Below are positions 4,829-47,664 of a stretch of 64,000 nucleotides of DNA, piece by piece (position 1 is the first letter of the stretch; every line of letters starts with the position of its first letter). The translations under genes were made by a program, and so were the position numbers. Origin of the DNA: Thermococcus zilligii AN1 (lineage in GTDB: Archaea; Methanobacteriota_B; Thermococci; Thermococcales; Thermococcaceae); contig NZ_AJLF01000002.1 of NCBI RefSeq assembly GCF_000258515.1, positions 124,001 through 188,000 of the forward strand, written 5' to 3'. Under the pieces are notes generated by a model. It saw nothing but the letters and a program-made list of their open reading frames with translations, searched no databases and was not told the origin of the DNA.

Positions 4829-4845
4829 TATCACTCCCGGTGATT
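4829..4845 (+). promoter_or_regulatory. Thermococcales glycolytic motif (TGM), TrmBL1/Tgr operator
   Basis: TATCAC-TCCCG-GTGATT matches the TATCAC-N5-GTGATA operator at 11 of 12 fixed positions. Tgr/TrmBL1 binding downstream of the TATA box represses sugar-uptake and glycolytic genes and is relieved by maltodextrin (known for T. kodakarensis and P. furiosus). The position between TATA box and start codon fits repression of a starch-degrading enzyme. A perfect copy precedes the 4-alpha-glucanotransferase gene at 21366. Confidence 0.8.
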
Positions 4846-4846
4846 G

Positions 4847-7174
4847 TTGTTGAGAAGGCTGTGGGTTCTACTCCTCATAGCGCTCCTGCTCCCCCAGGCG
4901 GGAGCAACGAGCTTCCACGTTCCGGAGAAGAGCGTTATTTACCAGGTTATGGTCGACAGGTTCTACGACGGGAACACGAGCAACAACGGGCCGTTTTATG
5001 ATCCAACCCGTTCCAATTACAGGATGTACTGGGGCGGTGACCTGGAAGGGCTCATCGAAAAGCTCGACTACATAAAGAGCCTCGGAATAACTGAAATATG
5101 GATATCACCAATCAACGACAACATCAACGCCCTAGCCTACGGTTCCGCCCCCTATCACGGCTACTGGCCCAGGGACTTCAAGAGAATAGAGGAGCACTTC
5201 GGAACATGGGAGACGTTCAGAAAGCTCGTTGAAGAAGCCGAAAAGAGGGGAATGTGCATAATAGTTGACTACGTCCCCAACCATTCGAACCCTACCAGTG
5301 ATGGCGAGTTTGGAAAGCTTTACGACAATGGAACTCCCATTACCAACTACCTCTACGACGCGAAGAAGGCCGTTATAAACCCCTACACGGGGAGCAGGGA
5401 GTACGTCTACCATCACAACGGGGGCATAAGCGAGTGGTACGGGTTCCAGCTCAAATACGCCAACCTCTACGACCTGGCTGATTTCAACCAGCACAACCCC
5501 TTCGTGGACGGCTACCTGAAGGAAGGGGCAGAACTCTTCCTTAAGGCGGGGGCCTGCGGCTTCAGGATTGACGCCGTGAAGCACATGGATCTGGGCTGGT
5601 TAGAAACCTTCTATCTCCACCTCTACTCCCGCTCCAGCGTCCCGCTCTTCATCTACGGGGAATACTATAACCTTGACCCAAGCAGAACCGACGACCTCTA
5701 CTTCTTCTACCAGTACTCGAACGTTACTTCACTCCTCAGCATTCCAGTAAGGGGTAAAATAGCGAACACGTTCGCCTATGGTGGAAGCTTCGAAAGCCTG
5801 GCCCGCAACCTGGAAGAATACTACTCAACCTTCGTCTATCCGAACAAGGCCGTAAACTTCCTCGACAACCACGACCTCGTCAGGTTTCTCAACATGAACC
5901 CCGACAAAAACCGCTTCCACATGGCACTCGCACTCACCATGACGCTCCCCGGGATACCCGTCATCTACTACGGTGATGAGAGCTACCTCGTCAGCAAGGA
6001 CGGCAAAGGCGACCCCTACAACAGACCCATGATGGTCTTCAACAACACAACGGAGGCGGCGAGAATAATAAGAACCCTGGCAGAGCTCAGGAAGCAGAAC
6101 GACGCCCTCGCCTACGGGGACTTCAGAACCATTCACGCGGAGTACTCCCTGTGGGTCTTCAGGAGGGACTTCGGGAACCACGGCCTCGTGGTTGTGCTCA
6201 ACAAAGGGAATGACAAAAACTTAAGCCTGGCGCTCGACTGGGGGGATGGAACCTACACGGACGTGATAAACGGGATCAACATGACCGTAAAAGATGGAAA
6301 CGCCACCCTTCACGCTCCCAAGGACAGCGTTCTCGTGTTCCACAGGGAAGGCGTTCAGAAAAAGCCGCTGATAGGCTCAATAACGCCCTACTCGGCCCAG
6401 CCCGGAAACCTGGTGGCGCTGGCCGGGGCGTCCTTTGGAGGGACGGGCAGGGTAATAGTGGGTGGAAAGGAGGCACAGATCATCAGCTGGAGCGATGACC
6501 TGATAGTCTTCAGGGTTCCCGAAGTTGAAACCGGTTCCCCCTGGGTTGACGTTTACATAAAGACCAGCTATGGGGAGAGCAACCGCGTGAAACTCCGCTA
6601 TTATAGAAGAGACGTTATACCCGTCCTGGTGGCCATAAAAGGGAGCGACCTCCAGGGATATCTCTGGATAAGGGGCAACACACCGGAGCTTGCCGAACCC
6701 AGGCCCCTGATAAAGTCCTCAACCGGCTACTACTTCACGGTTGTTCCACTACCCGAAGGTGTCCCCTTCGAGGTCGAGATCCTGGACGGCCTCCCGTGGG
6801 AAGGGCTGGTATCCACCGGAAAAGTTTACCACGGGGTGGCCAACTGGACGACCCTGCTCGAGCCAGGACCGCTTCCAAGGCCAACGACCACCACCAGATC
6901 TACCACAACGGGCAGCACAACCACGACGACAACTACCACCCACACGACCACCTCAACTTCACTCTCTTCCACTACAACGACCAGCAAAATCACCTCATTC
7001 ACCTCTTCCACAACCGCCACTACACCCACAACAACGACCACTACAACAACCACCACCAGCAAGCCCACGACTACTACGACTACCACCACGACCAGCATGG
7101 GAGGTGGCGGAATCTGCGGCCCAAGCTCGGTTCTTCTTATGGCCCTTCTGCCCCTCCTCAAGAGGAGGGGTTAG
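4847..7174 (+). CDS. Secreted GH13 amylase of cyclomaltodextrin glucanotransferase type, CGP-CTERM tail
   Basis: 775 residues. A signal peptide (RRLWVLLLIALLLPQAGA) is followed by a GH13 barrel beginning VIYQVMVDRFYDG. Likely catalytic residues are Asp in GFRIDAVKH (about 241), Glu in FIYGEYYN (about 271) and Asp in FLDNHD (about 342). After domain C come an IPT/TIG domain (from GSITPYSAQPGN) and a CBM20-like starch-binding domain (YLWIRGNTPELAE), the A-E domain order of CGTases. A Thr-rich linker (bases 6889-7095) leads to CGPSSVLLMALLPLLKRR, a CGP-CTERM surface-anchoring tail. The start is TTG at 4847; another TTG at 4844 leaves no room for the GGTGA ribosome site. It could instead be an amylase or cyclomaltodextrinase with CGTase architecture. 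A TGM operator overlaps its start. Confidence 0.88.
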   Translation: MLRRLWVLLLIALLLPQAGATSFHVPEKSVIYQVMVDRFYDGNTSNNGPFYDPTRSNYRMYWGGDLEGLIEKLDYIKSLGITEIWISPINDNINALAYGSAPYHGYWPRDFKRIEEHFGTWETFRKLVEEAEKRGMCIIVDYVPNHSNPTSDGEFGKLYDNGTPITNYLYDAKKAVINPYTGSREYVYHHNGGISEWYGFQLKYANLYDLADFNQHNPFVDGYLKEGAELFLKAGACGFRIDAVKHMDLGWLETFYLHLYSRSSVPLFIYGEYYNLDPSRTDDLYFFYQYSNVTSLLSIPVRGKIANTFAYGGSFESLARNLEEYYSTFVYPNKAVNFLDNHDLVRFLNMNPDKNRFHMALALTMTLPGIPVIYYGDESYLVSKDGKGDPYNRPMMVFNNTTEAARIIRTLAELRKQNDALAYGDFRTIHAEYSLWVFRRDFGNHGLVVVLNKGNDKNLSLALDWGDGTYTDVINGINMTVKDGNATLHAPKDSVLVFHREGVQKKPLIGSITPYSAQPGNLVALAGASFGGTGRVIVGGKEAQIISWSDDLIVFRVPEVETGSPWVDVYIKTSYGESNRVKLRYYRRDVIPVLVAIKGSDLQGYLWIRGNTPELAEPRPLIKSSTGYYFTVVPLPEGVPFEVEILDGLPWEGLVSTGKVYHGVANWTTLLEPGPLPRPTTTTRSTTTGSTTTTTTTTHTTTSTSLSSTTTTSKITSFTSSTTATTPTTTTTTTTTTSKPTTTTTTTTTSMGGGGICGPSSVLLMALLPLLKRRG

Positions 7175-35543: not shown

Positions 35544-37322
35544 ATGAGGCCACGGGACGTTACAAAATTTCTGGCGGTTGCCATTATCGTTCTGCTAATC
35601 CTCCCTCCCGCGGGAGCCAGGGGAGTTGAGAAGCCGGTTCTCCATGATGAGTTTCTCTATCAGTATTTCTCCCAAACCCTCAAGAAGTTTGCGTACTCCC
35701 TGAGATACACTTACTACGAGGGAAACGACTACGGCCTGACCCTGGCAGAGAACACAAGGAGCGAACTCCTCCAGATAATGATGGAAGGCAAGATTTATCA
35801 GGAGAAGGGGGTAAAGGCGAAAGTCTTCGAGGTTCTGCCCCCGTTTTACAAATTCTCCGTTGAGCTCGTGACCCTGGACAAGCTTTTGCTCAGCTTCCAG
35901 GAGAACAATCAAAGTCCCGCCCTTGCGATGGGTGTTATAGACACAATCACGAGGATGGAAGTGTACCTCGGGGAGATAAAGTCGATAGAGCTCTACAATG
36001 AGACAGAGATACTGAGGTTTGACACAAGAGAAATCGAGAAATACCTGAACGAGATCAGAACTGCCGCCGAAAAAACCCTAAACCAGACCCAAAACCTGAG
36101 CGAAATCCCCAATCTGACACTCTACGTCACCAATAAGAACCCGATAGTGAACCAGAGTGTGACCTTCTTCGGTACGGCCCCTTTAAACGAGAGCGTTGCG
36201 ATAATAATAAGGGACAAGAACGGTCTCGAAAGGGGAATTGTAGTCCCCGTGTCGCGGCACTTCTTCGCCCTTTCCTACCGCTTCACGAACCCCGGCAAAT
36301 ACTTCGTGAAGGCCGTCCAGGGGAACCTGAGCACGGAGTGGCTGGAAATCGATGTAAGAAAAATACCGACGTACTTCCTGATCACCTCCCCGACCTCGGC
36401 AATAATTAACACGGCCCTCACCCTCAAAGCCGTCCTCGTGGATTACTACTCAAATCCCCTCCCTGAAAGGGAAATAACGGTCAATGGAACGTCCTTCATA
36501 ACGGATTCAAACGGAGCCGTGGCCCTTGAGCTGAAAAGTTCAAGGGAGGCCAGCTTTCGTATCACTCTGGAGTTCCAGGGAGACGAGTTCCACGAGGGCA
36601 CGAGCAAGGTGGTGACAGTGGAGTTCACGAGAATACCAACGACCATAACGATAACCGGTCCTGGCACCGTCGAAGCCGGCAAGACCTTTGAAATCAGGGG
36701 CTCGATCAGTCCAGCGATAAACTCGACCGTTGAAATCTACGTCAATGATCGGCCCTACGCGATAGTTAACTCCACCAACGGCCTCTTTTCCCTAAGTATG
36801 GCACACGAAACCGTTGAAACCCTGAAGATATACGCAGTCTTCAACGGCACCGAGCTCTATCTTCCATCCAAATCGAACGTCCTCCTCGTGTCTGTGGTAC
36901 CTCCGGAGGACAACCTTCTAAGATACCTAGCAGTCATCCTAATAGTTGCTAGCATTGTTACCTACTCCCAAAAGGACAGGCTCTTCAGGGGAAGGACCCG
37001 CCAGGGAGAACCCGAAGGAACCGAGGCCCTCTCCGGAATATCCCCTGAAACTCCCGCCAAGCTGGAAATCCCCGAAGACGTCGGCAAGGCATATTCTCTC
37101 GTAAGGGATCTCCTGCTCAGAAGGAGAGGAATACCCAAGAACCTGACACCCAGGGAAGCCCTGGAAAAGCTGAAGGGATGGGAAGGATACGAAAGCCTGA
37201 AAACTCTGACTTCAATACACGAAAAAGCCGTCTACAAAAAAGAAAACCTCACCGAGGCCGAGCTTCAGGCCTTTAAGAAGGCCGCCGAGGCCGTGATAAC
37301 TGCCCTGGGTGGGACGGGATGA
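35544..37322 (+). CDS. Secreted/membrane Ig-like protein with cytosolic C-terminal domain (MoxR operon)
   Basis: 592 residues. Signal peptide (FLAVAIIVLLILPPAGA), a helical outer domain, two to three Ig-like beta domains (LTLYVTNKNPIVNQSVTFFG; TYFLITSPTSAIINTALTL; TTITITGPGTVEAGKTFEI), a membrane helix (YLAVILIVASIVTYS) and a cytosolic tail of about 120 residues like the DUF4129 domain (LLLRRRGIPKNLTPREALE). DUF4129 proteins are standard members of MoxR/DUF58 operons. The Ig domains resemble bacterial adhesion and polysaccharide-sensing modules. First gene of a six-gene operon; its end overlaps the next start (ATGA). Confidence 0.72.
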   Translation: MRPRDVTKFLAVAIIVLLILPPAGARGVEKPVLHDEFLYQYFSQTLKKFAYSLRYTYYEGNDYGLTLAENTRSELLQIMMEGKIYQEKGVKAKVFEVLPPFYKFSVELVTLDKLLLSFQENNQSPALAMGVIDTITRMEVYLGEIKSIELYNETEILRFDTREIEKYLNEIRTAAEKTLNQTQNLSEIPNLTLYVTNKNPIVNQSVTFFGTAPLNESVAIIIRDKNGLERGIVVPVSRHFFALSYRFTNPGKYFVKAVQGNLSTEWLEIDVRKIPTYFLITSPTSAIINTALTLKAVLVDYYSNPLPEREITVNGTSFITDSNGAVALELKSSREASFRITLEFQGDEFHEGTSKVVTVEFTRIPTTITITGPGTVEAGKTFEIRGSISPAINSTVEIYVNDRPYAIVNSTNGLFSLSMAHETVETLKIYAVFNGTELYLPSKSNVLLVSVVPPEDNLLRYLAVILIVASIVTYSQKDRLFRGRTRQGEPEGTEALSGISPETPAKLEIPEDVGKAYSLVRDLLLRRRGIPKNLTPREALEKLKGWEGYESLKTLTSIHEKAVYKKENLTEAELQAFKKAAEAVITALGGTG

Positions 37323-38308
37323 GGAAGACAGTAAAGTACGCCCTGCTTGTGACGGGAGTTTTCATCCTCTTCACCATGCCGCTGACGGTCCCCTACTTCA
37401 AGAGCTCCGCCCAGTACAGCATGTTCAACCCGAACTGGAACGGGATATCAAAGTTTGCGGAGCTCCTCTACAGGGAAGGAAAGGAGCCAGTGCCCCTGTT
37501 AGGCCCCCTGGACTCCTACGAGCTCTCCGGAGGAACACTCATGATAGTCGGGCCCGACTTAGACTACACCGCCGGGGAGATAGAGGCAATAAAGAGGTTC
37601 GTAGAGGACGGAAACACGCTCTTCATCGCGGACGACTTTGGGACGGCCAATGAAGTACTCAGGGGCCTCAACGTGCCAATGGGCATCTCCGAGTACCCCC
37701 TGAGGGACTTTTTCTACGAGATAGACGACCGCTTTCTGATAACGGTAAAGATAACCGATCCGGTGCTCGGTCGGGATGTCGACAAGGTTATAACCAACGA
37801 CCCCTCCGCGATAATAGTAACCAGAGAGGGCAAAGTCTACACGAGCGGAACGGCGATGATAAACTTCCATAAGAGGGCTTATCCGATTCTGGCCCTGATG
37901 CGTTACGGAAAGGGCAGGATAATAGTCTTAGCGGACCCGGATATACTGAGCAACAACCTCTTCGACCAGAATTACCCCTTCCTGAGAAACCTGGTGGACT
38001 ACATCCCTGGCCCGGTTTACATAGACGAGGGCCACCACAGTGACTTCAACCTCTACACCCAGGGGACGATAACGATACAGAGGGTTCTGCCAAAGGAGGG
38101 CGCCCAGAAAATCCTTTTCCTGCTGGGGTCGCTGGTTGTAATCTATGAATTCGGGGTGCTCAGGCATTTAAGGAAACCCCTCGGAGTCATAGTTAAAAAG
38201 ATAATCGGGGGAGAAAACTCCCTGGAGGAAATCGCGCTCAAACTTGCGGAGGAAAATGGGTGGGATAAAAAAGAAGTGCTCGAAATGCTGAGGAGCCTGG
38301 GTGATTGA
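37319..38308 (+). CDS. DUF4350 domain membrane protein
   Basis: 329 residues. N-terminal helix (YALLVTGVFILFTMPLTV), an outer alpha/beta domain resembling the glutamine-amidotransferase-like DUF4350 fold (TLMIVGPDLDYTAGEIEAIK; GKGRIIVLADPDILSNN), a second helix (KILFLLGSLVVIYEFGVL) and a short cytosolic helix-turn-helix-like end. DUF4350 is a usual partner of MoxR and DUF58. Start and stop overlap both neighbours by a few bases. Confidence 0.8.
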   Translation: MRKTVKYALLVTGVFILFTMPLTVPYFKSSAQYSMFNPNWNGISKFAELLYREGKEPVPLLGPLDSYELSGGTLMIVGPDLDYTAGEIEAIKRFVEDGNTLFIADDFGTANEVLRGLNVPMGISEYPLRDFFYEIDDRFLITVKITDPVLGRDVDKVITNDPSAIIVTREGKVYTSGTAMINFHKRAYPILALMRYGKGRIIVLADPDILSNNLFDQNYPFLRNLVDYIPGPVYIDEGHHSDFNLYTQGTITIQRVLPKEGAQKILFLLGSLVVIYEFGVLRHLRKPLGVIVKKIIGGENSLEEIALKLAEENGWDKKEVLEMLRSLGD

Positions 38309-38310
38309 AA

Positions 38311-39231
38311 ATGATAATCGAAAAGATAAAGGCGGAAGTAAAAAAGGCCGTAGTTGGAATGGACGACGTTGTCGAGCTCATGACCATAGCACTGCTATCA
38401 AACGGGCACGTTCTCCTCGAAGGCGTCCCGGGACTGGCAAAGACAACGCTGAGCAAAAACTTCGCAAGGAGTTTGAATTTGAGCTTTACCAGGATACAGA
38501 TGACGCCAGACCTCCTTCCGGCTGACATAATAGGGCACAGCTTCTACGACATGAGAACAGGGGAGTTCAGGATAAGGAAAGGGCCAATATTCACGAACAT
38601 CCTCCTTGTGGACGAGATAAACAGGGCATCGCCGAAGACCCAGAGTGCCCTGCTCGAGGCCATGGAGGAGAGGCAGGTAACCATAGAGGGCCAGACCTTC
38701 AAGCTTCCCGATCCCTTCCTGGTAATAGCCACCAGAAACCCGGTTGAGGTTGAGGGCGTCTACGAGATACCAACGGCCCAGGTGGACAGGTTTATGATGG
38801 GGATAAAGGTCTCGTACCTCAGCGAAAACCATGAAAAGGAAATGCTGAGGAGGAAAACCCTCGGCCTCTTCGACGAGGCAAAGCCCCTCATCGCCAAGGA
38901 AGAGCTCGAAAAAGCGGCAAAGGAAGTCAGGAAGGTAAAGGTCAGCGAGCCGGTGATAGATTACATCTACTCAATCCTGAAGGAAACCAGAGAAGACGAG
39001 AGGGCCCTTCTCGGAGCCTCACCGAGGGCCGGGGAACACCTTCTCCTGGCGGCCAAGGCAAAGGCCTACCTGGAAAACAGGGACTACGTCATTCCGGACG
39101 ACGTTAAAAGTTTAGCTGTTCCAGTTTTATCCCACAGAATCCTGATAAAACCCGAATACGAGATGGAAGGTCTAAAGGGGGAGGAAATTGTTAGAGAAGC
39201 CCTCAACAGGGTAGAGGTGCCGACTGGATGA
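38311..39231 (+). CDS. MoxR-family AAA+ ATPase
   Basis: 306 residues. Walker A HVLLEGVPGLAKTTLSKNFA, Walker B LLVDEINRASPKTQSALLEA, sensor 1 VIATRNPVEVEGVYEIP, sensor 2 GASPRAGEHLLLAAKA. MoxR ATPases act as chaperones or remodelers for partner proteins, usually with a DUF58/VWA protein. The ATG at 38311 lies 6 bases after GGGTGAT. It overlaps the DUF58 gene by four bases. Confidence 0.94.
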   Translation: MIIEKIKAEVKKAVVGMDDVVELMTIALLSNGHVLLEGVPGLAKTTLSKNFARSLNLSFTRIQMTPDLLPADIIGHSFYDMRTGEFRIRKGPIFTNILLVDEINRASPKTQSALLEAMEERQVTIEGQTFKLPDPFLVIATRNPVEVEGVYEIPTAQVDRFMMGIKVSYLSENHEKEMLRRKTLGLFDEAKPLIAKEELEKAAKEVRKVKVSEPVIDYIYSILKETREDERALLGASPRAGEHLLLAAKAKAYLENRDYVIPDDVKSLAVPVLSHRILIKPEYEMEGLKGEEIVREALNRVEVPTG

Positions 39232-40508
39232 AAACCGCCGACTTCCTGCTCGGTCTCTCAGGGGTACTCCTTGCCGGAGCAATATTCCTCCAGAGCCCAG
39301 CACTGGCCGGGATCTCCTCAATGGTGATGGCCTACTACTCGGCGGTCAGGCTGGCCTTCAGGGGGGAGGGAAAGGTAGTGCTTAAGCCCCCCGAGATGAC
39401 CACCGAACTGGAATGGGCAGAGATCCCGGTGGAGGTTGAGTCGAAATTCAGCGTTCCTGGAAAGGCCATCGTCAGGATTAGAAATCCCGATCTGGAAGCT
39501 GAAAACGTCTCGATAGACCTGGGGCCAGAGGAAAGGGCAAAAACCCATCTCAGGGTAAAGCCCTTGAAGAAGGGAACGCTTGATCCAGGCGTGGAGGCGT
39601 TCTTCACCGATAAATCCGGCCTTTTCATGAAGGAACTCAAGGTCGAGGGGGTTAAACCGCTGACCGTTCTCCCCTCGCCGAAAAAGGTTGCCGAAGCGAG
39701 GAGGCTCAGAAAAGAACCAAACGCCTTCGCAGAGCTCCTCCATGCCCTTGGAATAGGCAGTGAAAGCATAGACTTCGAGGAGCTGAGGGAGTTCATGCCA
39801 GGGGATGACATCAAAAAGATAGACTGGAAGGCGACTTCAAGGATCCTGAAGCCGGTAGTGAAGGTCTTCAGAAGGGAAACGCTGGCGGATGTTTACGTCC
39901 TCGTTAACGTGGACGAGTCCTTCAGGAGGGAGATAAGGAACGTGAAGACAGACTACTTAGCCCTCATTCTGGCCCAGCTAATAGCCTACTTTGCCCGCCA
40001 CGGCCACAGGGTTGGAATAGTTGCCTACAACGATAGCGGGGTTTACAGGGTAATGAGGAACGTCTACGAGCCGAGGAGAGCCCTCTCGGAGCTTAAGCTT
40101 GAGCCCAAACCCGGAAGGCCCCAGCTAAGACCCTCCTCCCCGAGGGGGGACACTCTCATCAGGAGAATCCTGCGCATAAAGGCGAGAACTCCGCTCTCGG
40201 GCATCGAAAAGGCTGTAAGCATCGTTCCAGAAAGCTCGTACGTTGTTATCCTCGACGACATCGGCCTCCACCCGTGGGCCATACTCAGCGCTGCCAGCAT
40301 GCTCGAGGAGAAAGGCTCCAAGATAGCCATCCTGTATCCCAACCCAATAAGGTTTATCCCGCGGGAAAGCGTCAGGCCAGAAAACCTCGAATCCCTTTAT
40401 CTGGCATACAGGGAGAGAAAAGAGCTGCTGAGGAAGATCAGGAGCAGAATAACGGTTGTTGAGCTATCGCCGAAGGATCTTCTGCCCGGGGTGGTGAATG
40501 CCCTATGA
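39228..40508 (+). CDS. DUF58 protein (MoxR partner)
   Basis: 426 residues. Two N-terminal helices, a beta domain and the DUF58 signature FEELREFMPGDDIKKIDWKA followed by a VWA-like domain (DVYVLVNVDESFRREI lacks a complete MIDAS DxSxS). DUF58 proteins work with MoxR in assembling or activating surface and envelope proteins. Overlaps moxR and the following gene by ATGA. Confidence 0.92.
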   Translation: MKTADFLLGLSGVLLAGAIFLQSPALAGISSMVMAYYSAVRLAFRGEGKVVLKPPEMTTELEWAEIPVEVESKFSVPGKAIVRIRNPDLEAENVSIDLGPEERAKTHLRVKPLKKGTLDPGVEAFFTDKSGLFMKELKVEGVKPLTVLPSPKKVAEARRLRKEPNAFAELLHALGIGSESIDFEELREFMPGDDIKKIDWKATSRILKPVVKVFRRETLADVYVLVNVDESFRREIRNVKTDYLALILAQLIAYFARHGHRVGIVAYNDSGVYRVMRNVYEPRRALSELKLEPKPGRPQLRPSSPRGDTLIRRILRIKARTPLSGIEKAVSIVPESSYVVILDDIGLHPWAILSAASMLEEKGSKIAILYPNPIRFIPRESVRPENLESLYLAYRERKELLRKIRSRITVVELSPKDLLPGVVNAL

Positions 40509-41047
40509 TAGGCCTCGTTGCTTCAATCGTGAGTTCGGCAGTGCTGAAATCCTGGATTCCCCTGGTGGCGGCCATAGCTTACGTCCTTGCCCCAAGGGGG
40601 AGAAAAGCCACCCTCTTTGGAGTTTCCCTCTACCTCCTGGCCGTTATATACAGTCCAGGCTTCGATTCGGTTTACACAGCTAAGGGCCTGAGGGAGCTCG
40701 TAGTCCTGGGAATGACGACGGTTTTAATCCTCAACGACGTCCTCCAGGGGAAGATAAAGGTGAGGGATAAAAGAGAGCTCGCCCTTATGGGCGTTCTGGC
40801 AGTCTCCGCGGTAAACGACTACACCCTTTTCGCGGCACTAATAGCTGTAACTGCCTACGAGCTCCGCGAAAGCTTCGGAAAAGCCGCCCTTTACTTCCTC
40901 TCCTGGCTGGCCGTTACGGGGGCGATCCTGATCATCCTGAGAGGAAAGCTCCCGGGGACCGCCGCTGAGGCCTTCGTGATAAGCGCCTCAGGACTTGCGG
41001 CGGTCGCAGCAGGAATGATCAGGGACACGGATCACGCAGAGGTGTAA
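40505..41047 (+). CDS. Membrane protein of the MoxR/archaeosortase operon
   Basis: 180 residues with about six hydrophobic segments (SWIPLVAAIAYVLAP, SLYLLAVIYSPGF, LVVLGMTTVLILNDVL, DYTLFAALIAVTAYEL, YFLSWLAVTGAILIIL, LAAVAAGMI). I recognise no family. It is locked between DUF58 (4-base overlap) and the archaeosortase (4 bases apart), so a role in the same machine is likely. Confidence 0.75.
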   Translation: MIGLVASIVSSAVLKSWIPLVAAIAYVLAPRGRKATLFGVSLYLLAVIYSPGFDSVYTAKGLRELVVLGMTTVLILNDVLQGKIKVRDKRELALMGVLAVSAVNDYTLFAALIAVTAYELRESFGKAALYFLSWLAVTGAILIILRGKLPGTAAEAFVISASGLAAVAAGMIRDTDHAEV

Positions 41048-41051
41048 AGTT

Positions 41052-41873
41052 ATGGCGGTGAAAATCAGAACGTTCGAAGTGCTTGTTGTTCTCCTAACAA
41101 CGGCTGTTTTTCTTGTTTACAGGACTCCCTTCACGCTTTACGCTGGCCTGATTTACGCCCTAGCACTCCACATCTCGGAAAAGAGGGCCCTCCCGAAGAG
41201 GCCCGGATTAGATCTCCAGGCGATCATCGGGGCCTGTCTCATCCTGATCTCACCGGCCTTTCTTGTGGTCAGGCTGGGAGAATACACGAGCCCCTCGGCC
41301 TTTCTCACCTTCCTCCTTCTCGGCCTCCAGCTCATACTCTACGAATTACGGGGCCTTGAGGTGCCCCTAACAGCCGTAACCGGGGGAGCGACGATAGCCC
41401 TGCTGGCCAAAACCGATCTGATCAGCGAGGCGATAGATGCGACAAGTGCCCTCTTTGTGGACGTCACCTCAATACTTGTCAAAGGGCTGGTGACCCTCTC
41501 GGGAGTCCCCATAAAGATCAACGGAAACGTGGCGGTGGTAAGGAAAAGTATGGTGATAATCGGCTCCGGCTGTTCTGGCTTTGACGCCTTCGTTGTTTAC
41601 ATCCTCGCGACCCTGTTGCTAATCTACCTGAGGAAATCCAGCAGAAGGGAGGCCGCCCTGTTGCTCCTCGGCGCCATCGGGATAATCCCCATCAACGCTG
41701 TGAGAATATTCACCCTTCTGGTCATTGGCTACTACAGTGGCATGTCCTTCCTGGAGCTGTTCCACTCCCACCTTGGGGACCTGGTGTTCGTTGCCTATGT
41801 CTTCATCTACTGGTGGGCCGTGCTCAGGTGGAAGAAACGGGTAAAAGGGGAAGAAAAGCTCACCGCCTCCTGA
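41052..41873 (+). CDS. Archaeosortase/exosortase-family transpeptidase
   Basis: 273 residues, about eight helices. The three catalytic elements of the exosortase/archaeosortase family are present: Cys in VIIGSGCSGFDAFVVYILA (about residue 175), Arg in PINAVRIFTLLVIGYYSG, His in LFHSHLGDLVFVAYVFIYW. Such enzymes cut C-terminal tripartite tails and attach the protein to lipid. GAGGTG precedes the ATG. It ends 14 bases inside the convergent amylopullulanase gene, which encodes a candidate substrate. The subgroup cannot be assigned from memory. Confidence 0.88.
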   Translation: MAVKIRTFEVLVVLLTTAVFLVYRTPFTLYAGLIYALALHISEKRALPKRPGLDLQAIIGACLILISPAFLVVRLGEYTSPSAFLTFLLLGLQLILYELRGLEVPLTAVTGGATIALLAKTDLISEAIDATSALFVDVTSILVKGLVTLSGVPIKINGNVAVVRKSMVIIGSGCSGFDAFVVYILATLLLIYLRKSSRREAALLLLGAIGIIPINAVRIFTLLVIGYYSGMSFLELFHSHLGDLVFVAYVFIYWWAVLRWKKRVKGEEKLTAS

Positions 41874-44800
41874 AGAGCAGGAGGGCACCGATTAAGACTG
41901 CAATACCCACGGCGAGGCTGCTGAAAAATGGAACATTTGAGAGGTCAACCATCTGGGCTGTATCTATTGAACCGTCGCCCAGCTCATCGTCCGTGTTCAG
42001 GGCGCTCATAAGCTCAACCACCCCGGGCGAACCGGGATTTACCGTGCCGCCCCGGCCGTCCCCTATGAAGACAAGGACGTTAAAGCCTATCGAAGAGGGG
42101 TTTCCGAGGAGAGACCTCGGGATTGCCACCTGAACAACGCCACCGGCCTCTGATGCCATAGCATAGTAGCCCCCGGTGAGCCCGTTAAAGCTTGAATCAT
42201 AGATCTTAACTCCAGGCCCAGTGAATAACACCGAGTCTTGCACTCCCGCCTTTGAGAGGTCGACGGTTACCCAGTAGTCCCAGCCGGGGGAGTACCTGAG
42301 CGAGCCGTCATAGGGGACTGCATGGTTAGCCCCTGAGCCCGTGTTTATCGGGATGGCTATGATCGGTGCCCCGAAGCTTCCCAGAGAGGACAGGTTCCCC
42401 AGCTTTATCGAGAAGTATATGTAATCGCCGTCCGCCCTTAGGCGAACGCTCAGGAGGTCGTAGTTCTCAGGGTTCCACGGGTAGTTCTTTGTTGAATGCT
42501 CGTCTCCAGAGGCGTCGTTCCAGACGTATTCGCCGTCGTGTATCTCCCCCGTGTTTGGGGCGGGCAAATAGCTCCCCCATGAGCTTTCGTCACCGGTTAG
42601 ATGGCTGTAAACGCTTTCCGGGACGTTTGAAGGTGCCAAATAGAGGTGGTAGTCCCTCCAGCCGTTGTTGTCCCACTCACTTCCGTTCGTGAAGACGAAG
42701 TCCACGGAACCCCAGCTGGCGGAGGTTTTGATGGTAACCTTCCAGAGGCCGTTCTCATGGGTCATCGGCGTGTCCGTCACATCTTTCCAGCCGTCGTGTC
42801 CCCAGTGGAGCGTTAATGAAGCGGAGCCTTCCAGGGGGCCACCGCTCGCGTTGTAGTATATTGTAACCGATTCACCTGCTCGTGGATTTGACGGAGAAGC
42901 CAGCACGGTTCCCCTTATCGGCTCGCTGAGGAGCTTTCCAAAGATTGAGGCGTTCCACGGCCCGGCATACAGGTAAAAGGTGGCATCGCCGCTGAACTTT
43001 ATCTCATCGACTATGGTAAGGGTTCTCCAGTCCTCTCCCCTGTTGAAGGAAGCCGGGCCCGGAATTACGTAGGCCCCGAGCGTGTCCGTTTCAGTGTTGT
43101 AGTAGCCCGCAACTTTGCCGTCGTAGAGCCAGACCCTGCTTAGATGGGCCTTCCCGTTGTGGAGCATGTCGCCTAACCCCGGCGAGAAGCCCGTCTTAAT
43201 GTAAATCGTCTCGGCCACGTTCCGGTAGGTTACCTTGAGATAGGGCCATCCCCTGCGGAGCTCTATGTATTTGGTGAAGCCTCCAGGGCTTTTTGCGGCT
43301 ATGAGAACCTTTCCACCGGTTCCATTGTCGAGGATGGAGAGCTGGTAGTAGTCGTTCTCATAGGTTCCGCCATTGTAGGCATCGCTCAGGCCCCAGACGT
43401 GGTTGCCGTCGTTGTAGTCACCTTCAGTCCCGCTCCAGAGGGCCATAGAGTTCCCAATGACTACCTGCCCGTTGGAGTCGAAGAGCCAGCCAATCCTTCC
43501 GCCTATCGGGTCTATCACAGCGTAGAGCCTGTCGTTTTGGATTACGATCTCGTTGTCGTTATCGCCGTCAACGTTCTTCCAGTAGGCCAAGAGCGGTTTG
43601 TCGTTATCGCTGAGCCACCACGCGGCGTAGGCGTAGGCCAGCGAGTGCCTCAGGTGGGAGGTTATTTCCTTTTCCCAGCCACTTATCGGCCCCGTGAGGC
43701 CGTCGTGCCAGCCGGTCTCGTAAAGGTTTGCTATGAGGGTTATCCAGGCCATCTCCACGAGGTTGTTGTTTATTCCTTTGTTCTCCAGGGCCTTAAGCTC
43801 CTGGTAGGCGTCCCACCAGAGCGCACCGGCGCTCTTGGGGCAGTTGTAGGGGTAGTAGTTTATGGCCCAGTCCTTGTACCAGGCGTTTCTCTCAGCTCTC
43901 CCGTCACCGTTTACGTCCCCAGTGCCCCCGTAGCCGCTCGTCCCGCCTATTTCGGAGTAAGTGCCCGGAACCGGCCAGTAGTCGCCCCCATCACCCCAGA
44001 AGCGGCCGCCCTGCCACGAGCTCCATGAGAGAACGTCGTCGAGTTTAACCGCCTGGATCCACGGGTGGGAGGCGACGTACCTCACCGCGTAGAGGTAATC
44101 CTGGGGATCCGTCGGCCAGTTCGCCACGCCAGCGGCCTTCTCCCAGTCGTCAGCGTAAACGTCTATCTGCTCCTGGTCACTGCTCAAGGCGAGGTCGAGC
44201 CAGTGGGCCTTTACGCTCGTCCAGATATCTGAGTCCCAGTCACTTGAGCTGTAGATTACGTCCTTCAGCCAGTCGTCGATGAAGAAAATCCTGAGCTTTC
44301 CGTTGGGGAGCCTGTAGACCTTGCGCGGGTTTATTGGATTTCCGTTAGTGTCCTTACCGCTCCCGTGGGTGTTCTCGTCGAGGATGACTGCCTCAGCGTA
44401 GGGCTGGCCGTCCGCCGGGTCTATTGCCGCAAAGTACTCCCACGGGTCGCTCTTTACCCCGTTGATAGGATCGCCGTCGCTGAGCCCGGTCTCCCACACC
44501 CTCTCGGGGACCCAGGCGACCTTTGGGTTGTAGCGGAAAAGCTCCCAGATGAGGGTATTTTCAAGGGCGATGCTCTTCACGTTCAGATCCTGGGGGAAGA
44601 AGGGCATTATGTGCTGACCGTAGGAGGAGGTGAGTACGCTTATCCACCCCTCCGAGATGCCCTTGTTTATCTCGTCCCTGAAGCTGAAGTCGCCGCAGTG
44701 GGGGTCGTTCCACAGCATCGACTCGAGGAGGACACCGCTCATGTGGAGGTTCGCCGGGACCTTGTACCGGTCGTGAACGCGGAGTATCTCGTCGAAGCCA

Positions 44801-45525
44801 GTCCCTATGCCCCCGCAGAAGACGTCCGTGTAGCCTATGTGCTGGTTGCCGTGGTGGACGAAGGCGACCTTGGCGGTGCCAGCGTGAGCATTGCTTGAAA
44901 CGGAGTAGTGGAGGTCGTCTGGGAGAGAGTCAGTTATGACAGGGTTAAAGTCCTTGGAGGACAGAACCTGGAAGTTAACGGTGCTGGTGTAGGAATAACC
45001 CGGGAGCCTGCCCGCGTTGAGCTGAACCACTATGAAGTCGTACTCAGCGTTGAAGGTAACCCCAAGTACGGCCCCGTCCAGCGTGGAGCCGTCGGGCAGG
45101 TAAACCCTGTAATTACCCGGCGAGTAGATGGCGACCGCAGCGTCCCACTCCATCGAAGTGCTCCCCCGCAGGCCATCGGGAAGCCACGTTGCGCCGCCGC
45201 TCCTGTAGTCCATCAGGACGTACCAGTTGACGTTGTTCTCGTCGTTAATTTTTAGGTTCATGAGGTCTATCCTCATGGACACTACCGAGGGGTAGGCCGC
45301 GTAGTAGAACGCTATAATGTCCCTCGCCCCGTCGCTGCCGTCTCTGTAGAGATAGATATCTCCATGGCCATCGAGGGCCTTCACATTATCGTAGTTCCAC
45401 GAGAAGGGGTCTCCGCCCGCCATCTGGCCAGAGTCAGCTGAAATAAGGTTATTGTTGCTGCCGAAGCCCGCGAAGAGGCTTCCCAGCAGTGTGAGGATCA
45501 GAAAAAGGGCAGGTTTCTTCGGCAT
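41860..45525 (-). CDS. Secreted amylopullulanase, GH57, with starch-binding domain and sorting tail
   Basis: 1221 residues. Signal peptide (PALFLILTLLGSLFAGFGS); GH57 catalytic part with KVAWVPERVWETG (nucleophile Glu region) and LRIFFIDDWLKDVIYSS; a long beta region; a CBM25-like domain (LHWGHDGWKDVTDTPM, VDFVFTNGSEWDNNGWRDY); a DOMON-like domain (GEYVWNDASGDEHST to IPRSLLGNPSSIGFNVLVF); and the tail NVPFFSSLAVGIAVLIGALL then FRRR. It hydrolyses alpha-1,4 and alpha-1,6 links of starch or pullulan outside the cell. The ATG at 45525 is chosen because GGTGGTG lies before it and the signal peptide begins there. No TGM operator was found upstream. Confidence 0.92.
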   Translation of the reverse strand: MPKKPALFLILTLLGSLFAGFGSNNNLISADSGQMAGGDPFSWNYDNVKALDGHGDIYLYRDGSDGARDIIAFYYAAYPSVVSMRIDLMNLKINDENNVNWYVLMDYRSGGATWLPDGLRGSTSMEWDAAVAIYSPGNYRVYLPDGSTLDGAVLGVTFNAEYDFIVVQLNAGRLPGYSYTSTVNFQVLSSKDFNPVITDSLPDDLHYSVSSNAHAGTAKVAFVHHGNQHIGYTDVFCGGIGTGFDEILRVHDRYKVPANLHMSGVLLESMLWNDPHCGDFSFRDEINKGISEGWISVLTSSYGQHIMPFFPQDLNVKSIALENTLIWELFRYNPKVAWVPERVWETGLSDGDPINGVKSDPWEYFAAIDPADGQPYAEAVILDENTHGSGKDTNGNPINPRKVYRLPNGKLRIFFIDDWLKDVIYSSSDWDSDIWTSVKAHWLDLALSSDQEQIDVYADDWEKAAGVANWPTDPQDYLYAVRYVASHPWIQAVKLDDVLSWSSWQGGRFWGDGGDYWPVPGTYSEIGGTSGYGGTGDVNGDGRAERNAWYKDWAINYYPYNCPKSAGALWWDAYQELKALENKGINNNLVEMAWITLIANLYETGWHDGLTGPISGWEKEITSHLRHSLAYAYAAWWLSDNDKPLLAYWKNVDGDNDNEIVIQNDRLYAVIDPIGGRIGWLFDSNGQVVIGNSMALWSGTEGDYNDGNHVWGLSDAYNGGTYENDYYQLSILDNGTGGKVLIAAKSPGGFTKYIELRRGWPYLKVTYRNVAETIYIKTGFSPGLGDMLHNGKAHLSRVWLYDGKVAGYYNTETDTLGAYVIPGPASFNRGEDWRTLTIVDEIKFSGDATFYLYAGPWNASIFGKLLSEPIRGTVLASPSNPRAGESVTIYYNASGGPLEGSASLTLHWGHDGWKDVTDTPMTHENGLWKVTIKTSASWGSVDFVFTNGSEWDNNGWRDYHLYLAPSNVPESVYSHLTGDESSWGSYLPAPNTGEIHDGEYVWNDASGDEHSTKNYPWNPENYDLLSVRLRADGDYIYFSIKLGNLSSLGSFGAPIIAIPINTGSGANHAVPYDGSLRYSPGWDYWVTVDLSKAGVQDSVLFTGPGVKIYDSSFNGLTGGYYAMASEAGGVVQVAIPRSLLGNPSSIGFNVLVFIGDGRGGTVNPGSPGVVELMSALNTDDELGDGSIDTAQMVDLSNVPFFSSLAVGIAVLIGALLLFRRR

Positions 45526-45570
45526 CTTCAACACCACCGGTGGTACATCCATTGGAAATGAAAAAGACGT

Positions 45571-45580
45571 CCTAAAAAGC
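45571..45580 (-). promoter_or_regulatory. Promoter (TATA box) of amylopullulanase
   Basis: GCTTTTTAGG on the minus strand, about 50 bases before the ATG; so the gene has its own promoter downstream of the 295-residue gene. Confidence 0.45.
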
Positions 45581-45608
45581 ATTACGTCCGCAAAAATGGG
45601 AAAGGGGC

Positions 45609-46496
45609 TCAGAGGCGCCTGAAGACCAGCAGGGCCCCCAGGGCAACGGCCAGGCCAACGGCGAGGCTGCTGAAGAAGGGCACCTGGGAGATGTCAATAT
45701 CCGCGTAGTAGTCAATGTGACCGTCCTGAACTTCGTTCCAGGTGTTTGGCCCGGTGGTAGTCATCGCATCGAGAACGTCCGAAGCACCGTTTATATCCCA
45801 AGCATTACCCGAGGGGTCCACCCTAACCACTGCGAGCTCAACCCTTATCGTGCTCGGGTTTCCGAGCTCCGACTTTTTAATCCTGACCTCAACGGCGTCG
45901 TTGGCCGTTGAAGCAACGAACATGTCGTCCGGTGAGGATACATCATTCCAGTTAGTGTCCACCAGATCCAGCGGGGAACCACCTCTCCAGACTGCCTTTC
46001 CGTCTCCATAAACTGGGCTCCCATCCTTCACTGTATCGTTTGCCAGGTTGATGAGGAGCTGGTACTCCCAGTTGGCCTTTCCGCCCTGTGCTACCTGGGT
46101 GTCAGAGTTGAAACCAAACCATGTTTGCCCTGAACCCTGCACCTGGTCAGTGTCTATGGTTATCATTATGCCCGGCGCCCCGTTATCGCCAACGACGTCG
46201 AGGTCTTTGAACTTTATCAGGAAGTAAATGTACGTATCGTCGGCGGTAATGCGAAACTCGGTTATGTCGACTCTGGGGTCTGGGTTGCTAAAATCCGTCC
46301 TCTCGTCCCCCGTTGCATCCTTCCAGATCCACTCCCCATTGCTTATGGTATAGCTGTTGTCTGAGAGAAGGCTTGAGTCCCCAGTCCAGTCGCTTGGGTC
46401 TCCATCCACTGTTATTTTGTAGTTGCTGGCATTAACAAAGCCAGCAAGGGCCATAAAAACCACCAACACGGCCACCAGGGCACCAAACTTTCTCAT
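45609..46496 (-). CDS. Secreted DOMON-like (glucodextranase C-like) protein with the same sorting tail
   Basis: 295 residues. Signal peptide (LVAVLVVFMALAGFVNA), then one beta-sandwich from YKITVDGDPSDWTGDSSLLS through GEWIWKDATGDERTDFSNPD, TYIYFLIKFKDLDVVGDNGA and VRIKKSELGNPSTIRVELAV. The same blocks occur near the C-terminus of the amylopullulanase. The tail QVPFFSSLAVGLAVALGALL then VFRRL is nearly identical to that enzyme's. There is no catalytic domain, so it may be a carbohydrate-binding or scaffold protein on the cell surface. GGGAGGTG precedes the ATG. Confidence 0.82.
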   Translation of the reverse strand: MRKFGALVAVLVVFMALAGFVNASNYKITVDGDPSDWTGDSSLLSDNSYTISNGEWIWKDATGDERTDFSNPDPRVDITEFRITADDTYIYFLIKFKDLDVVGDNGAPGIMITIDTDQVQGSGQTWFGFNSDTQVAQGGKANWEYQLLINLANDTVKDGSPVYGDGKAVWRGGSPLDLVDTNWNDVSSPDDMFVASTANDAVEVRIKKSELGNPSTIRVELAVVRVDPSGNAWDINGASDVLDAMTTTGPNTWNEVQDGHIDYYADIDISQVPFFSSLAVGLAVALGALLVFRRL

Positions 46497-46624
46497 GGTT
46501 CAACACCTCCCAGTAGTTGCACTGGCCCAACTTGTCCAACATCCCCCGGGAGGGCATACCCCTCCAGGCGATACTACATTCTTTTCGCGCCCGGAGGTTA
46601 AATGGGTTTCGTCCCCATGCAAAA

Positions 46625-46634
46625 ACATTTTAAG
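46625..46634 (+). promoter_or_regulatory. Promoter (TATA box) of DUF1616 gene
   Basis: ACATTTTAAG; expected start near 46655, giving a very short leader that ends in GGTGGTCGA before the ATG at 46663. Confidence 0.45.
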
Positions 46635-46662
46635 AGCCAGGGATACTCCCACCGGTGGTCGA

Positions 46663-47664
46663 ATGGAGGAGCTCACCGGCGTCAGGAAGCACTGGGATTT
46701 AGTAACCGTGGTAATGCTTTCACTTCTCCTCGACTTCCTCATAGCCTACGCTCCGGAGAGCATTCTGAGAAAAGCCCTCGGCCTGGCCTTCGTCCTCTTC
46801 TTCCCGGGCTACGTCTTCATAACGGCCCTCTTCCCGGAGAAAAGGGAGCTGGACAACCTTGAGAGGCTTGCCCTGAGCTTCGGGCTGAGCATAGCGATAG
46901 TTCCCCTGATAGGCCTCGGCCTCAACTTCACCCCCTGGGGAATAAGGCTGACACCAATCCTCGTCAGCCTGACCCTCTTCAACGTTGCATTTGCCGCTAT
47001 AGCCATCTACAGGAGAGGGAAAGCGGTAGAGCCCTGGGTGCCCTGGATAACCATTGAGAGGATAAAGAAAGAGCTCGAGTGGGAGGAATCGAGCAGGCTC
47101 GACAGGGCCCTCACCGTTATCCTGATAGTCTCGATAATAGCCTCCATCGGGGCCCTCGCGTACGTGATAAGCCACCCGAGGCAGGGGGAGGAGTTCACGG
47201 AGTTCTACATCCTCGGGCCGGAAGGGAAGGCGGCCGATTACCCAACAAAATTGAGGGCCGGTCAGGAGGGCAGGGTCATAATCGGGATAGTCAACCACGA
47301 GGGCAGGAACGTCACTTACTACGTCCAGATCTGGCTGGTTAACCTGACATGGGACAACAGCACGAACACCACAATGGTGTATGAAATGTACCCGATGCCC
47401 GGCTGGTTCAACGTGACACTGCCCCACGTTCCAGTGAACATAGAGGGCAACTGGACGCCGCAGTTCGAAACGAACTACACCTTCAGGATAGACAGGCCGG
47501 GGAAGTGGCAGGTCTGGTTCCTCCTCTTCAAGGACGAACAGCCAGAGCTTCCTGCCGCTCCCCCGGACGGGAACTACGCCGAAACAGAGGCGAAAAACCT
47601 GATACTCGGGGCGATAGACGGGACGATACAGAGCCTCAAGCTGAACGTCGAGGTCGCGGGGTGA
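46663..47664 (+). CDS. DUF1616 membrane protein
   Basis: 333 residues. Four N-terminal helices (including FVLFFPGYVFITALFPEKRE, the DUF1616 signature with LDNLERLALSFGLSIAIVPL), a fifth helix (ALTVILIVSIIASIGALAYV) and an outer beta domain with ILGPEGKAADYPTKLRAGQE and several NxT/S sites. DUF1616 proteins are often found near archaeosortases and surface-glycan genes in archaea (recalled), which fits this neighbourhood. The frame is open further upstream but the ribosome site GGTGG fixes the ATG at 46663. Confidence 0.85.
   Translation: MEELTGVRKHWDLVTVVMLSLLLDFLIAYAPESILRKALGLAFVLFFPGYVFITALFPEKRELDNLERLALSFGLSIAIVPLIGLGLNFTPWGIRLTPILVSLTLFNVAFAAIAIYRRGKAVEPWVPWITIERIKKELEWEESSRLDRALTVILIVSIIASIGALAYVISHPRQGEEFTEFYILGPEGKAADYPTKLRAGQEGRVIIGIVNHEGRNVTYYVQIWLVNLTWDNSTNTTMVYEMYPMPGWFNVTLPHVPVNIEGNWTPQFETNYTFRIDRPGKWQVWFLLFKDEQPELPAAPPDGNYAETEAKNLILGAIDGTIQSLKLNVEVAG

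Follow-up and report, generated by a model that had tools for sequence, protein, structure and literature searches.

An archaeosortase-family protein of Thermococcus zilligii and a VPxF[S/G] C-terminal tail as its very likely sorting signal

How extracellular hydrolases are retained on the cell is poorly known in the hyperthermophilic Thermococcales, and for CGP-CTERM, the best known tail of this group, we know of no identified enzyme. The best studied archaeal example of a tail and its enzyme is the ArtA/PGF-CTERM pair of Haloferax volcanii, in which the enzyme is a polytopic membrane protein and for which C-terminal cleavage and lipid attachment have been reported (PMC7157517, PMC4343526). 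In addition, the C-terminal motif DNNxxxGG, called VARTIG, has been proposed as an undescribed sorting signal of the Thermococcales (PMC8416519).

We analyzed a stretch of 64,000 nucleotides from Thermococcus zilligii AN1 (the window, to which all plain coordinates below refer) together with 94 Thermococcaceae genomes. It is very likely, in our view, that a tail consisting of VP[FLMVT]F[SG], a helix and RR is a sorting signal, and that it is read by the archaeosortase-family protein encoded at 41052-41873. What supports this pairing is the adjacency of the two, their correlated gain and loss, and the existence of substrates that are unlinked to the enzyme gene.

The tail is found at the end of two window proteins, both encoded on the minus strand. 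One is a GH57 amylopullulanase-like protein (41860..45582) with CBM53 and Glucodextran_C domains and a signal-peptide-like start, MPKKPALFLILTLLGSLFAGFGS, whose translation ends with DLSNVPFFSSLAVGIAVLIGALLLFRRR before the stop codon. The other is a putatively exported protein of 295 aa (45609..46496), ending with DISQVPFFSSLAVGLAVALGALLVFRRL before its stop codon and carrying a Glucodextran_C-like domain by a weak Pfam match just below the cut-off. The tails themselves, NVPFFSSLAVGIAVLIGALLLFRRR at 41863..41937 and QVPFFSSLAVGLAVALGALLVFRRL at 45612..45686 (both on the minus strand), each match the tail profile described below with E 1.3e-14. As the original prediction had noticed, the ten residues VPFFSSLAVG are identical in the two proteins and lead into a short hydrophobic segment with a basic end. 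However, the window pair alone would be weak evidence for a sorting signal, because the C-terminal domains of the two proteins are homologous over about 245 residues, with 37% identity over 267 aligned positions (E 1e-34).

A tail profile made from the tails adjoining the enzyme gene was searched against the 94 Thermococcaceae genomes, and a new version of it was then built with 32 tails. The final profile gives 41 matches at E<=1e-4 in 17 of the 94 genomes, and the best match in the remaining 77 genomes has E 0.0065. The matches that are readable end 0-1 residues before the stop codon (at most nine for weak, partial ones), and their consensus is VP[FLMVT]F[SG], a short hydrophobic helix and RR. 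At least six groups of carriers bear it, with no likeness among them outside the tail or a shared terminal domain: GH57 amylopullulanase, glucodextran-C domain proteins, beta-propeller-like proteins (so named from their repeats, with no Pfam match), C1 peptidases and a subtilase, Spherulin4, and GH18/lamin-tail proteins. A signal-peptide-like N-terminus was found in all 32 carriers tested, by a lenient test, since 21 of 42 other window ORFs, mostly membrane proteins, pass it as well. The expectation that such a profile would find extreme C-termini of signal-peptide-like proteins from several unrelated families was thus borne out, while the strict ten-residue VPFFSSLAVG holds for the window pair and the signal conserved across species is VP[FLMVT]F[SG] instead. 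What is expected of a CTERM signal is found here: mutually unrelated, signal-peptide-like proteins whose very last residues form a motif, a hydrophobic helix and a basic cluster.

Among the archaeal CTERM models run on the tail of the window amylopullulanase, PEF reaches 13.0 against a cut-off of 23, PGF 10.5 against 24.5, and CGP gives no match; the general LPXTG anchor model barely reaches its cut-off on this first tail, by virtue of the helix and basic end. A full-text literature search did not find VPFFS together with Thermococcus. Judged from the sequences, the shared tail is a real C-terminal sorting signal that has no curated model. It occurs in step with an archaeosortase-family gene, belongs to no curated CTERM family, and in these respects upholds the suggestion of a new signal class separate from CGP-CTERM. 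A third VPFFS carrier of the T. zilligii genome, a propeller-like protein at L058 1904-3188 (G000:C2:471903-473187), is split by a frameshift into frames of 318 and 113 aa while its orthologues are single ORFs; the frameshift may be an error or mark a pseudogene.

The gene at 41052..41873 on the plus strand converges on the amylopullulanase gene, and by the ORF coordinates their 3' ends overlap by 14 bp. It encodes a predicted membrane protein of 273 aa, of an unnamed archaeosortase-family type, with 55.6 bits to TIGR04178 (cut-off 23) and 65.0 bits to PF09721 (cut-off 25.7). It lies within the window and was overlooked in the original prediction. TIGR04178 is matched by all 13 intact orthologues, in the alignment of which GCSG (Cys174), NA(V/L)R (Arg218) and FHSH(L/I)GD (His238/His240) are invariant; their Cys, Arg and His are the candidate catalytic residues, as in the active site proposed for the superfamily. 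The window protein is rich in hydrophobic residues, AVILMFWG making up about 60% of it, and its AlphaFold model consists mostly of long helices at a moderate pLDDT of 75; no solved structural relative was found by sequence or fold. The named archaeosortases A, B, D, E, F and H of NCBIfam give no match to the window enzyme at E<=0.1, and ArtF is only weakly matched by two orthologues, whose best E is 1.6e-4 where true ArtF gives 1e-57. By its sequence, then, the product is a member of the exosortase/archaeosortase superfamily that falls below the cut-off of every named type, with ArtC the nearest. A profile search of genome contigs with the enzyme alignment recovered only three Thermococcus MAGs and one distant cyanobacterial match.

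The archaeosortase gene is the last of a run of plus-strand genes whose coordinates touch or overlap. The operon begins with a DUF4129-like membrane protein (35544..37322; weak Ig-like and DUF4129 matches below cut-off), and continues with a DUF4350 protein (37319..38308; PF14258, 81 bits), a MoxR-type AAA ATPase (38305..39231; PF07726, 209 bits), a DUF58 protein (39228..40508; PF01882, 49.6 bits) and, directly upstream of the archaeosortase, a membrane protein of 180 aa without an informative Pfam match (40505..41047). The order is conserved for the first gene and the DUF58 gene, as is the position of the 180-aa gene. Beyond the tail genes, a DUF1616 protein (46423..47664, plus strand; PF07760, 297 bits) forms the right edge of the cassette of archaeosortase and tails. 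A convergent tail gene stands beside the enzyme in 11 of the 13 enzyme-intact genomes; in one of these 11, G043, the protein that bears the tail there is an unrelated one, and in G059 and G049, where the enzyme was found without an adjoining tail gene, tail proteins lie elsewhere in the genome. The reverse is seen in G015 (L087 8474-9307), where a single deletion took the last helix of the archaeosortase together with that of the convergent tail protein, and no other tail is left in that genome. Each of these two truncated genes now reads into the antisense of the other.

Across the 94 Thermococcaceae genomes, the intact enzyme is present in 13, all of the genus Thermococcus, and extending the search to 115 genomes of the phylum gave no further intact enzyme. 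Tails occur in 13/13 enzyme-intact genomes versus 4/81 others, and among genomes at least 95% complete in 11/11 with the enzyme versus 0/59 without it (p 5e-13). Seven enzyme-positive genomes, and none of the 81 others, have the beta-propeller-like carrier family, which shows no linkage to the enzyme gene. On an rpoB tree, enzyme and tails show about 8 parsimony changes of state, close relatives differ in both (for example G068/G042, G019/G033 and G043/G031), and the dependent model of Pagel is preferred (LR 41.8, p 2e-8); shared ancestry therefore does not explain the pairing. The phylogenetic co-occurrence with a cognate enzyme that a CTERM signal should display is seen in these counts and in the Pagel comparison. 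Two carrier families give little contrast within themselves: C1 peptidase relatives without the tail occur in the enzyme-negative G026, yet also in the enzyme-positive G032, and are not decisive, and amylopullulanase orthologues of the window type occur only in enzyme-positive genomes, hence offer no tail-swap contrast.

Tails without a detectable enzyme come from four incomplete metagenome assemblies, namely G051 (86% complete), G056 (94%), G062 (73%) and G064 (85%). G062 lies inside an enzyme-positive clade, and may lack the enzyme gene simply through a gap in its assembly. In one of the sister MAGs G051 and G056 the GH18 motif reads VPFFRS. G064 (L149 2756-4400) has the operon, but there DUF1616 directly adjoins the 180-aa membrane gene, with no enzyme or tail genes between them, an apparent empty site, and a tail is kept on a C1 peptidase despite the missing enzyme gene. 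Missing sequence or recent loss is the best account of these four genomes, but they are the main evidence against a strict dependence of tail on enzyme.

Other tails exist in the same genomes. The window amylase at 4844-7174 ends with GGGGICGPSSVLLMALLPLLKRRG before its stop codon, a CGP tail unlike the VPFFSSLAVG one, as had been stated before. CGP-CTERM exceeds its cut-off in 94/94 Thermococcaceae genomes, with 2-26 matches each, and therefore cannot depend on the 41052-41873 enzyme; the guess that two systems coexist in this genome is confirmed in that CGP-CTERM is present irrespective of the enzyme. The second archaeosortase-family gene of the T. zilligii genome is ArtF (194.7 bits, cut-off 150). 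ArtF loci were noted at G000:C1:28801-29052 (L025) and in L007, L008, L009, L017, L022, L024 and L026; of these, L025 and L017 were scanned, and both exceed the TIGR04293 cut-off. Immediately downstream of ArtF in most loci is a gene of about 250-270 aa whose product ends in VPEFPFL[EK] and a helix, without a basic end, and this ending is a candidate partner motif of ArtF. Besides these, unclassified archaeosortase-like proteins in L019 (G087) and L021 (G090) stand beside proteins ending in SAPIP[VL]PVYL, a helix and a basic end, possibly a third and separate tail in another genus.

Several simpler explanations have to be weighed against the pairing. The tail might be an ordinary uncleaved C-terminal membrane anchor, the carriers and the archaeosortase travelling together solely by way of one genomic island; many carriers do adjoin the archaeosortase gene, the tail helix is short and generic, and tails persist in G051, G056 and G064, where no enzyme was detected. 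However, 17 of the 41 strong tails, in 8 enzyme-positive genomes, are separated from the enzyme gene by 36-638 kb or sit on other contigs, and when unlinked tails alone are counted the association stays (8/13 with the enzyme versus 4/81 without, p 5e-6), so linkage does not explain the pairing. Furthermore, a plain anchor would not need VPxF[S/G] to be kept across unrelated proteins, and we regard this explanation as unlikely.

It could also be said that the two window tails are alike merely because a homologous C-terminal domain was duplicated, for which the 37% identity speaks, and the original prediction had named a duplication limited to these two genes as grounds for abandoning the signal. 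Such a limit does not exist: C1 peptidases, a subtilase, GH18, Spherulin4, lamin-tail and propeller-like proteins have only the tail in common, and the duplication-only reading, which we consider practically negligible, was rejected since unrelated proteins bear the same tail. As for the enzyme, ArtF is present in T. zilligii and a few other genomes and might read the tail itself, or else the CGP-CTERM machinery might do so. But the distribution of ArtF-type genes does not match that of the tail: G033, G080 and G081 have short ArtF-like genes but no tails, and no ArtF-like gene was found in many tailed genomes (e.g. G014, G017, G034, G045), while the occurrence of CGP-CTERM in every genome speaks against its machinery. 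Both are very improbable readers of the tail compared with the protein at 41052-41873.

For a tail read by this archaeosortase, a course of events can be proposed. The carrier would be exported by its N-terminal signal peptide, and the C-terminal helix and basic end would then hold it in the membrane with VPFF[S/G] at the outer face, as the layout suggests. The archaeosortase Cys, together with Arg and His, would cut at or near the motif, and the new C-terminus would be transferred to an acceptor that is probably a membrane lipid, by which a starch-, protein- or chitin-degrading enzyme would be tethered to the cell surface; cleavage near the motif and transfer to lipid are proposed by analogy with Haloferax ArtA. 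Taken as a whole, it seems likely, though with less assurance than for the pairing itself, that an archaeosortase type restricted to Thermococcus and unlike the curated types A-F and H uses the VPxF[S/G] signal to tether such enzymes to the surface, that it comes and goes together with its substrates as a cassette, and that CGP-CTERM and, in some species, ArtF run in parallel. A previously unassigned archaeosortase-type enzyme would thereby gain a predicted set of cell-surface substrates. With enzyme and tail assignable to each other in a genus that has genetically tractable species, archaeosortase chemistry becomes testable in a hyperthermophile; the tail might serve as a surface-display tag for heat-stable enzymes, and a CTERM model and an archaeosortase subtype, both new, become available to annotators.

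In comparison with known systems, with the archaeosortase types taken largely from their NCBIfam models, VARTIG is likewise a proposed sorting signal of the Thermococcales, but its DNNxxxGG is a different motif, placed after the helix, with no enzyme identified (PMC8416519). CGP-CTERM (TIGR04288) is also a C-terminal helix tail on Thermococcales proteins, including those of T. zilligii, whereas it is present with or without the enzyme and has the Cys-Gly-Pro motif that the window tail lacks. Archaeosortase F (TIGR04293) is another archaeosortase-family protein of the same genome, but it has about 170-190 aa, passes the ArtF cut-off, and differs in genomic context and distribution. Archaeosortase A with PGF-CTERM of Haloferax volcanii shares the three-part tail and an enzyme with Cys, Arg and His that in T. 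zilligii is predicted to lie in the membrane; however, the window enzyme has no ArtA match at E<=0.1 and its tail stays at 10.5 bits where 24.5 are needed. Archaeosortase C with PEF-CTERM (TIGR03762 / TIGR03024) comes closest: ArtC is the nearest named model, at 49.8 bits over about 204 aligned residues and below its cut-off of 100, and PEF-CTERM has the same layout of motif, helix and basic end, although the window tail scores 13 bits against 23 and its motif is VPxF[SG], not PEF.
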